Shown in pieces: positions 49,057 through 51,483 of a stretch of 64,000 nucleotides of DNA. The notes beneath the pieces are model-generated. The model saw only the letters and a program-made list of their open reading frames with translations. It was not told the origin of the DNA and did not search any database. Origin of the DNA: Aeromicrobium fastidiosum. GTDB taxonomy: Bacteria; Actinomycetota; Actinomycetes; Propionibacteriales; Nocardioidaceae. A program made the position numbers and the translations under genes. The stretch spans positions 2,542,001 through 2,606,000 of the forward strand of contig NZ_JAGIOG010000001.1 in NCBI RefSeq assembly GCF_017876595.1. The letters run 5' to 3'. Numbering within the stretch: the stretch's first letter is position 1; each line of letters opens with the position of its first letter.

Positions 49057-49175
49057 CGCGAGGATCTCGGCGACGAGCGGGGCCGTCGCCGTCATGGGTC
49101 CAGCCGCGGATGCGCGTGCCGTCGCCGTCATGGGTCCAGCCGCGGATGCGCGTGCCGCCGGCGCTCGTCGGACCA
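49033..49175 (-). pseudogene. remnant of an alpha/beta hydrolase gene
   Basis: On the minus strand TSAGGTRIRGWTHDGDG closely matches the N-terminus of the nearby hydrolase (TSADGTRIRAWTNDGDG). The 12-residue unit is duplicated (36-bp tandem repeat). After a frameshift the strand continues PLVAEILALRPIPGG then stop (49033-49035), which resembles a hydrolase C-terminus. The whole catalytic core is missing. It reads best as an internally deleted paralogue. There is no start codon in frame nearby. Confidence 0.55.
49082..49153 (+). repeat. 36-bp tandem duplication
   Basis: Two exact adjacent copies (49082-49117 and 49118-49153), equal to 12 codons of the hydrolase remnant. Confidence 0.95.
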
Positions 49176-49251: not shown

Positions 49252-50100
49252 TCAGACCCGGGCGAGGATCGCGTCGACCAAGCGGTCCGCTCCGCCGCCG
49301 GACTGGGGCAGGAACAGGCTGGGCTCGGCCAGCTCGAGCTCGATCAGCAACGGCGACCCGTCGGTGGCCGTGACGAGGTCGACACGGGCGTATAGCGGCG
49401 GTTCGTCGAGCGAGAGCGCCTCGCAGGCCGCGGCGATGGCTCGCTGCGACACCTCGTGCTGGGCCTCGCTCGGCGACCGGGGCGTGATGCTCTCGCGGCT
49501 GTCCCGGTCCTGGCGGACGCCCTCGCCGCGCTCGAGCAGGGGCCCCTTGCGGATCGCGTGCGAGAACGTGCCGTTGAAGTGCAGCATCGCGGTCTCGCCC
49601 TCGTCGTCGACCGAGGCGATGTAGGGCTGGGTCATGGACGCCCTGCCGGCCGCGACGAGCGACGCGCTGTGCTCCCAGACCTCCTCGCGGGTGCCCCATC
49701 GCGCGGTGTCCTTGGATCCTGCCGAGATGGTCGGTTTGACGACCCACTCCGCGTGGTCGCCGAGGTCGTCCCCGGTAGCGACGTCCCACCGTGTCTCGAT
49801 GATCGGGACGCCTGCCGCCTCGAGCTGCCGGAGGTAGACCTTGTCGGTGTTCCAGGTGAGGACGTCGGCGGTGTTGTGCAGGCGGGGCACCGAGGCGGCC
49901 CAGGCGAGGAACTCGTCGCGGCGGGCGAGGTAGTCCCAGCACGACCGCACGACGACGGCGTCGTACGAGGCCCAGTCGACCGTCGGGTCGTCCCAGACCA
50001 CGACCTCGCCGCCGGTACCCCGGTCGGCCGCGGCCGCGGCCAGGAGCGGGAGGTCGGTGTCGTGGACGCGGCTGCCGGAGCTGGTGACGAAGGCGATCAT
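49252..50100 (-). CDS. ATP-grasp domain protein (RimK/glutathione-synthetase-like)
   Basis: A 282-aa protein. After an N-terminal alpha/beta region (MIAFVTSSGSRVHDTDLP, VVRSCWDYLARRDEFLAW) come ATP-grasp elements: the ATP-binding lysine in EWVVKPTISAGSKDT, TQPYIASVDDEGETAMLHFNG, and the metal-binding LIELELAEPSLFL. It should ligate a carboxylate to an amine or thiol; the substrate is unknown. The ATG at 50100 is preferred because TAGCAT ends 7 nt before it. An in-frame ATG at 50109 is inside that promoter. It is divergent from satD with a shared operator. Confidence 0.85.
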   Translation of the reverse strand: MIAFVTSSGSRVHDTDLPLLAAAAADRGTGGEVVVWDDPTVDWASYDAVVVRSCWDYLARRDEFLAWAASVPRLHNTADVLTWNTDKVYLRQLEAAGVPIIETRWDVATGDDLGDHAEWVVKPTISAGSKDTARWGTREEVWEHSASLVAAGRASMTQPYIASVDDEGETAMLHFNGTFSHAIRKGPLLERGEGVRQDRDSRESITPRSPSEAQHEVSQRAIAAACEALSLDEPPLYARVDLVTATDGSPLLIELELAEPSLFLPQSGGGADRLVDAILARV

Positions 50101-50107
50101 GCTCAGC

Positions 50108-50113
50108 ATGCTA
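50108..50113 (-). promoter_or_regulatory. -10 element, leaderless ATP-grasp gene
   Basis: On the minus strand TAGCAT ends 7 nt before ATG 50100. Its -35 position falls inside operator box 1 (50119-50135). Confidence 0.5.
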
Positions 50114-50118
50114 TCGAG

Positions 50119-50191
50119 TGAAGCTCGACACTTCACTCTTGCGTATTGAAGCAGGACGCTTCACTATAAAGAAATGAACCGTGACGCTTCA
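50119..50191. promoter_or_regulatory. three-box operator between ATP-grasp and SatD genes
   Basis: TGAAG-N7-CTTCA occurs at 50119-50135 and 50147-50163, and TGAAC-N7-CTTCA at 50175-50191. The period is exactly 28 bp. Box 1 overlaps the -35 region of the minus gene. Box 2 lies between TTGCGT (50139-50144) and the -10 region of the plus gene (CACTAT 50162-50167 or TATAAA 50165-50170). Box 3 starts one base inside the satD ATG. The arrangement predicts repression of both genes by one dimeric regulator. Confidence 0.7.
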
Positions 50192-50824
50192 TCTCTGTAC
50201 GCCGTGATCGGCGACCTCGTGGGGTCCCGTGACCAGCCCTCGCGCGCCGAGGCCCAGCGGAGCCTGCAGGATGCCCTCGACACGGTCAACCAGCAGGTCG
50301 CGTCCGCCCTGCAGCCGCTCGAGCCGACGATCGGCGACGAGCTGCAGGGGGTGTACGCAGACCTCCACGACGCCCTGCTGGCGACGGTGCTGGTGCGACT
50401 GGCGCTGCCCGACACGATGGACTGCCGCTTCGGCATCGGGGTCGGGACGATCGAGATCGTCGGTACGTCCAACTACGGTCTGACGCAGGACGGCCCCGCT
50501 TGGTGGTCGGCGCGCACGGCGATCGACACCGCCAAGGACAAGAGCCGTCACCTGCCGGGGCTGCGCACCTGGATCGTGCGCGACGAGACGGAGGAACCCG
50601 ACATGGCCAATGCCTACCTGCTGATGCGCGACGAGCTCGTCAGCGGCTTCGACGCCCGCCAGCGCCGCATCGCGCTCGGCGTGGTCCAGGGCCGGACGCG
50701 GACGCAGCTGGCCGAGCAGGAGGGCATCTCGGTCTCGGCGGTGTCGCAACGCCACCGCGCCGGCATCGGGGCGCTGATCGAGTCGATCGACCACCTGCCG
50801 ATGCTCTCCGGCGGCCGGGCATGA
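50174..50824 (+). CDS. SatD family protein with C-terminal HTH
   Basis: A 216-aa protein. The SatD-like body begins [22 protein letters not shown] and contains [23 protein letters not shown]. Residues ~171-204 form a helix-turn-helix ([22 protein letters not shown]). SatD proteins are poorly characterised. The HTH plus the operator overlapping its own start codon suggest autoregulation (inference). CACTAT ends 6 nt before the ATG. The next gene, a membrane protein, overlaps by ATGA. Confidence 0.82.
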
Positions 50825-51483
50825 GCGCCCTTGCCGTCCTGCTCGCAGCCGTCGGCATCGCCGACCTCGTGCGACGGTTCAAGATCGTGACGGCGCTCGT
50901 CGTGACCGTGGCGGGCCTGCTGCTGCTCGGCGGTGGCTGGCACACGATCTGGTTGACGCTCGTCATCGCCCTCGTGGTCGTCATCTGGGTCGACGCGGCG
51001 AGCCACGACTCATCGGCGGGGCTTACGGTGCTCGCGGTCGTGGCCGCGGCCCTCGTCGTCACCTCCGGATGGGTGTCGTTCGGCGAGGCGGCCCTCGACG
51101 ACTGGTACGTCGACCTGCCGATCCCGCGGCTGGCCACAGTCCCGCTCGACCGGGCCGCGCTCGGGCTGGGCGTCGTGCTGTTCCTCACGACCGCCGCCAA
51201 CGTCGTGGTGCGACGGGTCCTGGGTGCCACGGGTCCGCAGGTGCTGGCCCAGGGGGCCGACCTCAAGGGAGGACGCGTGCTGGGCCCGCTCGAGCGGTGG
51301 TTCGTGCTGGCCTGCGCACTGAGCGGCAACCTCGCCGCGATCGCGATCGTCGTCGCCGCCAAGGGCATCCTGCGGTTCCCCGAGATCTCGCGCGACAACA
51401 CCGACGGCCTGAGGGCCGAGTACGTGCTGGTCGGCAGCTTCGTCAGCTGGGGCCTCGCGCTGCTGTTCGTCCCGCTCTTCTGA
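50821..51483 (+). CDS. membrane protein co-translated with satD
   Basis: A 220-aa protein with about six to seven hydrophobic helices (for example [78 protein letters not shown]). I recognise no transporter signature. SatD genes commonly have a membrane-protein partner downstream, so the pair is probably a functional unit (partly inference). Start ATG by 4-bp overlap. Confidence 0.8.

Follow-up and report, generated by a model that had tools for sequence, protein, structure and literature searches.

Class III nucleotidyl cyclases carry residues in the roles of transition-state Asn and Arg, and fusions of a cyclase to a helix-turn-helix (HTH) occur in mycobacteria; a survey of cyclases from 2004 is said to name Rv0386 and the HTH. 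One-component regulators that control their own genes are of an ordinary kind. The SatD family (PF16264) takes its name from the sat operon of Streptococcus mutans, and in the part of the literature available here it carries an acid-tolerance label only (PMC10326533). In literature searches of partial coverage, SatD appeared as a widely spread family without a worked-out function; within that coverage, there was no description of SatD as a regulator, of an operator for it, of its cyclase-type palm or of a conserved array of three boxes at fixed pitch on a leaderless promoter. The window analysed here is a 64,000-nt stretch of the genome of Aeromicrobium fastidiosum (contig NZ_JAGIOG010000001.1, positions 2,542,001 to 2,606,000), in which a satD gene is preceded and overlapped by such an array. 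Its product is a SatD family member by the curated model (71.5 bits, curated cut-off 29), and comparison with relatives suggests, with a probability of roughly 0.8, that SatD recognises the boxes and controls its own operon. The array would thereby give the SatD family a testable job as an autoregulator, a defined DNA target and a membrane partner.

An array of fixed pitch upstream of satD

The initial annotation had described three palindromic boxes with a 28-bp period, the third overlapping the satD start codon, and the sequence bears out both points: the 17-bp palindromes start at 50119, 50147 and 50175, a pitch of exactly 28 bp, and box 3 begins at the T of the satD ATG (50174) and encodes the first residues of SatD. 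The features are as follows.

50119..50135, no strand assigned: predicted operator box 1, TGAAGCTCGACACTTCA, TGAAG-N7-CTTCA; from the sequence, and in the same place in close relatives
50147..50163, no strand assigned: predicted operator box 2, TGAAGCAGGACGCTTCA, TGAAG-N7-CTTCA; from sequence and conservation, between the satD -35 and -10
50175..50191, no strand assigned: predicted operator box 3, TGAACCGTGACGCTTCA, TGAAC-N7-CTTCA; from sequence and conservation, overlapping the satD start codon
50174..50824, plus strand: satD, predicted SatD family regulator of 216 residues (Pfam SatD, E 1e-19)

Perfect copies of TGAAG-N7-CTTCA occur at just two sites in the 3.93-Mb genome, namely boxes 1 and 2. 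A genome search for further sites of the TGAAS-N7-CTTCA kind, also suggested at the outset, yielded five sites matching TGAAS-N7-STTCA, three of which are the window boxes, against three sites for a reversed control pattern; allowing at most one mismatch to TGAAG-N7-CTTCA gave 25 sites, and 22 for the control in reverse. A second target of the boxes in the organism's own genome was ruled out, there being no excess over the control besides the three boxes.

To assess conservation, satD matches were collected in 92 of the 149 genomes of the family. Upstream regions were covered for 70 satD genes (L006-L075) and for 80 genes from named genomes, the latter being 80 of 329 relatives, and organisms overlap between the two sets; the 70-gene set did not extend to 22 genomes in which the match was weakest (E 2.3e-11 and weaker), nor to a second match in G128. 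Two loci with too short an upstream region (L045 and L145) were dropped, and removal of proteins at least 80% identical reduced 148 loci to 90 non-redundant ones, nearly all of them actinobacterial (the exception, L143, is from Thiotrichales). A motif-free test was applied, in which 17-bp palindromes with 5-bp arms were sought and an array was defined as two of them at one pitch that together form 9 or 10 of 10 possible pairs. Pitch 28 was found at 32 of the 90 loci, whereas 20 mononucleotide shuffles gave 0.3 such loci on average and never more than 2. Pitches 42 and 56 were found at 19 loci each and are generated by the same array, and all other pitches from 17 to 60 reached at most 7 loci. 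Among the 61 most distant loci, pitch 28 occurred at 18, followed by 42 (9 loci) and 56 (8 loci). The boxes and their 28-bp spacing thus persist upstream of many satD homologues, a check that the initial annotation had suggested, and at this stricter score they form a predicted, conserved palindromic operator on the promoter of satD itself.

In close relatives the three boxes are kept, and the letters of N7 and between the boxes differ. Outside Nocardioidaceae, the array was found in Mycobacterium and Mycolicibacterium (L155 and L163, with L169 at score 8 and L162 at score 7) and at one of three Blastococcus loci (L160; not L123 or L139). Frondihabitans and one Microbacterium (L113, L136, L157) scored 8 with letters such as ATAAG or TTAAG, and most Microbacterium loci of the set scored 7 or less. 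A separate draw across the phylum comprised 17 loci, of which 8, one being the window itself, were assessed (L076, L078-L080, L083, L084, L087, L090 and L092 yielded no reading frame that satisfied a motif filter); three genomes of another family (f4; L082, L086, L088) scored 9 or 10, and no array was found at L089 and L091 among those assessed. At L044, L046, L047 and L051, from other genera of the Aeromicrobium family, TTCAG-N7-CTGAA replaces TGAAG-N7-CTTCA at the same pitch.

A linkage scan for the two-box array (20 fixed letters, at most 2 mismatches) in the 149 family genomes revealed it in 34 of 92 satD-bearing genomes and in none of the 57 others, and the reversed pattern was absent from all 149. 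By our own count, 54 of 55 forward array places adjoin satD. The sole exception, an extra array in G144, was considered as a second target and rejected; it overlaps a terminator-like inverted repeat and has no recognisable target gene beside it, as judged by eye without a family scan. Two genes flank satD in the window.

50821..51483, plus strand: gene of a membrane protein whose C-terminal module recurs in a DUF3307 protein; 4-bp overlap with satD
49252..50100, minus strand: ATP-grasp-like gene, divergent from satD; DcsG-related, below cut-off

The membrane gene is present at 76 of the 90 non-redundant loci and at 32 of 32 with the array. At the 14 loci lacking it, the array was found at none (Fisher p 0.0016, which ignores kinship), and when the score was relaxed to 8, L033 and L057 among them qualified. 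An adjacent divergent ATP-grasp gene was found at 20 of the 90 loci; it accompanies the array at 10 of 32 loci and is absent at 22. In A. endophyticum (L093), about 2 kb separate satD from the start of the ATP-grasp gene; the array remains at satD, and no box was seen in the letters printed upstream of the displaced gene. Because of the satD linkage, the co-occurrence with the membrane gene and the frequent absence or displacement of the ATP-grasp gene, the array is assigned to the operon of satD and the membrane gene; the ATP-grasp gene appears, from these comparisons, to be a lineage-specific neighbour of satD.

SatD and covariation of its recognition helix with the boxes

The letters of the boxes were compared with the recognition helix of SatD at 47 loci, which remained of 50 loci at a score of at least 8 after L072 and L030, whose box pairs were judged by eye to be out of register, and L122, which lacks an SxxSQ match, were dropped. 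An Arg follows SxxSQ at 27 of 34 loci with the half-site TGAAG, and no such Arg is found at 12 of the 13 other loci; furthermore, the half-site TTCAG goes with an SQQF or SQAF helix at 4 of 4 loci. Box distance was correlated with recognition-helix distance when palm-domain distance was removed (partial Mantel r 0.469, p 0.0005, the minimum attainable with 1999 permutations). Of the evidence gathered here, this covariation points most strongly to SatD itself as the probable reader of the boxes.

SatD consists of a palm domain (about residues 3-159) and an HTH (about residues 161-206), and its AlphaFold 2 (AF2) model, with a predicted local distance difference test (pLDDT) score of 93.2, has the palm fold of class III nucleotidyl cyclases. 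Comparison of the palm with these cyclases by hhalign gave a probability of 61.7% (E 7.7e-5); PF00211 was absent from the Pfam matches of SatD at E up to 10. D14 and D55 of SatD are invariant in 50 of 50 aligned sequences, and hhalign pairs both with invariant metal-binding Asps of the cyclases. By model and hhalign, then, SatD would share with class III adenylyl/guanylyl cyclases (PF00211) the palm fold and the two metal-binding Asps. R114 is also invariant in the 50 sequences, and the position four before it is W110, a Tyr in a distant SatD. The hhalign alignment ends ahead of R114 and W110, so that it does not fix the register to the cyclase Asn and Arg; if R114 corresponds to the cyclase Arg, SatD appears to have Trp (W110) in place of the transition-state Asn.

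The initial annotation had also placed an HTH at the C-terminus of SatD, and weak profile matches and the model agree with this. A sub-threshold match to sigma70-ECF covers residues 147-201 (E 4.6e-4, 19.9 of 42.9 bits), Sigma70_r4 matches weakly (E 0.024), and solved structures searched by sequence gave weak HTH matches only (best E 0.023). By similarity only, SatD is thus credited with a DNA-binding HTH domain, probably of the kind found in sigma-70 region 4 and LuxR-type regulators. Unlike the mycobacterial cyclase-HTH fusions, it is a palm-HTH protein of 216 residues, predicted to be autoregulatory, with three operators at fixed pitch.

Promoters, proposed mechanism and alternative readings

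Promoter elements were read by eye on both strands, as follows.

50139..50144, plus strand: putative -35 of satD, TTGCGT, with a 17-bp spacer; TTG is kept in several close relatives (L007-L012)
50162..50167, plus strand: putative -10 of satD, CACTAT, 6 nt before the ATG, leaderless; supported by relatives
50108..50113, minus strand: putative -10 of the ATP-grasp gene, TAGCAT, 7 nt ahead of the start codon at 50100; tentative

As first annotated, box 2 lies between the plus-strand elements, overlapping the first two bases of CACTAT, and box 1 covers the minus-strand -35 region (-35 and spacer) if TAGCAT is the -10. The satD -10 is retained as CACTAT or CAACAT in the closest relatives, and CACTAT is one letter off TANNNT. 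A scan of 50080-50230 for a generic sigma-70 consensus found no promoter, the elements read by eye included. An in-frame start candidate is present at 85 of the 90 non-redundant loci; among these, TANNNT ends 6 nt ahead of the start at 49 and 7 nt ahead at 16, and any other gap in the range 0-30 nt is found at 11 loci at most. A Shine-Dalgarno-like stretch was seen at 1 of the 75 starts with an associated -10-like hexamer, the stretch searched partly overlapping the -10. According to published work (PMC3160421), this pattern is a mark of leaderless genes, which are common in Actinobacteria. The best reading of the satD promoter is that it is leaderless.

The register of the array relative to the -10 was examined at 48 loci, of which 42 were used and six had no assigned -10 (L018, L044, L051, L060, L102, L160); the choice of a -10 at a gap of 6 or 7 is built into this test. 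The offset was 6 at 16 loci, 8 at 15 and 15 at 8, with three others. Where box 3 is present it starts 1, 7 or 10 bases inside the gene, positions that share one codon phase, in which TGAAG is read (x)TG-AAG and yields no stop. The boxes stand over or beside the -10 wherever one could be assigned, and in three-box loci also over the gene start. Because the pitch is constant at 28 while the register shifts, the pitch is best explained, we infer, by contacts between bound proteins; stable as box letters and promoter register change, it would be a clear example of a spacing that protein contacts probably dictate.

In the mechanism proposed here, SatD would act as a one-component regulator with a class III cyclase-fold palm and a C-terminal HTH of the sigma-70 region 4 or LuxR kind. 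One SatD dimer would occupy each 17-bp palindrome, and three dimers at the 28-bp pitch would extend across the leaderless satD promoter, beginning upstream of the -35 and reaching codon 6. As these dimers would cover the promoter, transcription of satD and of the overlapping membrane-protein gene would be blocked, and repression (negative autoregulation) is probably the sign of the control. In the window lineage box 1 may also cover the promoter of the divergent ATP-grasp gene, where co-regulation is possible. Since the two acidic sites of the palm match the metal-binding Asps of class III cyclases, a nucleotide would be the likeliest signal, and the palm fold points to the kind of ligand to test. 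A more tentative extension, to which we give rather less than even odds, is that SatD binds or makes a (cyclic) nucleotide that assembles or releases the three-dimer array and so sets the level of the membrane partner, as a widespread nucleotide-to-membrane signalling module.

Several observations weigh against this proposal. The array score is below 9 at 58 of the 90 non-redundant loci and below 8 at 40, and the low scorers include genus mates with satD (e.g., L016, L026, L031) and most Microbacterium loci; the boxes are degenerate at some of these loci, and a different operator, or none at all, may serve the others. The covariation was corrected for palm-domain distance alone and not on a tree. 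Furthermore, 28 bp correspond to 2.67 helical turns, which would place neighbouring dimers on different faces of the DNA and offers no explanation for their cooperativity. By sequence, the palm shows a moderate link to class III cyclases, and profile comparison of the palm with GGDEF found no link; kinship with GGDEF was rejected on that ground, though Foldseek and VIA list GGDEF chains too.

An operator conserved at one locus may serve a regulator encoded far away, and with SatD binding deduced from comparison, a separate, unlinked protein could bind the boxes and satD merely be a gene that it controls. This is improbable, as the array is confined to genomes with satD (34 of 92, against 0 of 57), a global regulator would have more sites in the genome than the 25 seen against 22 for the control, and the letters of the boxes follow the SatD recognition helix. 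It is very improbable that the boxes mainly control the divergent ATP-grasp gene, as repressor or activator sites; the gene is divergent in the window and at many Aeromicrobium loci, and its putative promoter here overlaps box 1, but 22 of 32 array loci have no such gene adjacent, the array of A. endophyticum stays at satD with the ATP-grasp gene about 2 kb off and without visible boxes, and L031, L032 and L037 keep the ATP-grasp gene without membrane gene and array. The initial annotation had proposed SatD autoregulation together with control of the membrane protein and the ATP-grasp ligase; the comparison supports the first two well, and the third does not hold beyond the window lineage, for the reasons of absence and displacement just given.

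If SatD does bind the boxes, it could still activate its own operon or switch sign with its ligand, a variant that overlaps the core claim and differs in sign. An activator could sit at box 1, which in the window is upstream of the -35; however, boxes over or beside the -10 and the gene start fit occlusion better, judging from position, and activation is therefore considered unlikely. Hardly credible is an origin of the palindromes as RNA hairpins or by chance duplication rather than as protein operators. Palindromes are able to form hairpins, but the inferred transcription start lies downstream of boxes 1 and 2, hairpins with arms of 5 bp and loops of 7 nt are weak (judged without folding), and, unlike in a recent duplication, the arms are kept while the letters inside and between the boxes differ.

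The membrane partner and the divergent gene

The membrane partner of SatD was considered as a Pfam family and rejected as such, there being no Pfam family of its own and no consistent Pfam match among 29 members. PF11750 (DUF3307) gave no match for the window protein at E up to 10, nor in 29 relatives at E up to 1. The C-terminal 72 residues of the partner, however, share 44% identity with the end of a DUF3307 protein (L221, from G385; BLASTP E 1e-10), so that the two have a C-terminal module in common while the DUF3307 domain itself is not matched in the window partner. The gene of this DUF3307 protein adjoins that of a distant SatD, which aligns with the window SatD over 119 columns (E 2e-7). 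SatD and DUF3307 genes adjoin in G385 and G355. In a draw of 246 genomes, DUF3307 was found in 12, 10 of them without a SatD match, and SatD in 17, 15 of them without a DUF3307 match. At L221 and L226, in a distant actinobacterial family, the SatD beside the DUF3307 gene has a longer C-terminus.

The ATP-grasp protein matches the model of the D-cycloserine synthetase DcsG below its cut-off (E 6e-77, 258.7 of 360 bits), and no Pfam match was found for it at E up to 10. Its minus-strand frame offers alternative starts at 50109 and 50136; the start at 50100 is preferred because TAGCAT would stand 7 nt ahead of it as a -10. In a subgroup of the window genus (L031, L032, L037 and relatives), satD and the divergent ATP-grasp gene are kept and there is neither a membrane gene nor a 28-bp array; some members, e.g., L035, retain a single box, and SatD of this subgroup reads GDEAQ or GDESQ. 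Between the ATP-grasp gene and a GT87 gene, positions 49082-49157 hold a perfect tandem duplication with a 36-bp unit in 2.1 copies (100% match).
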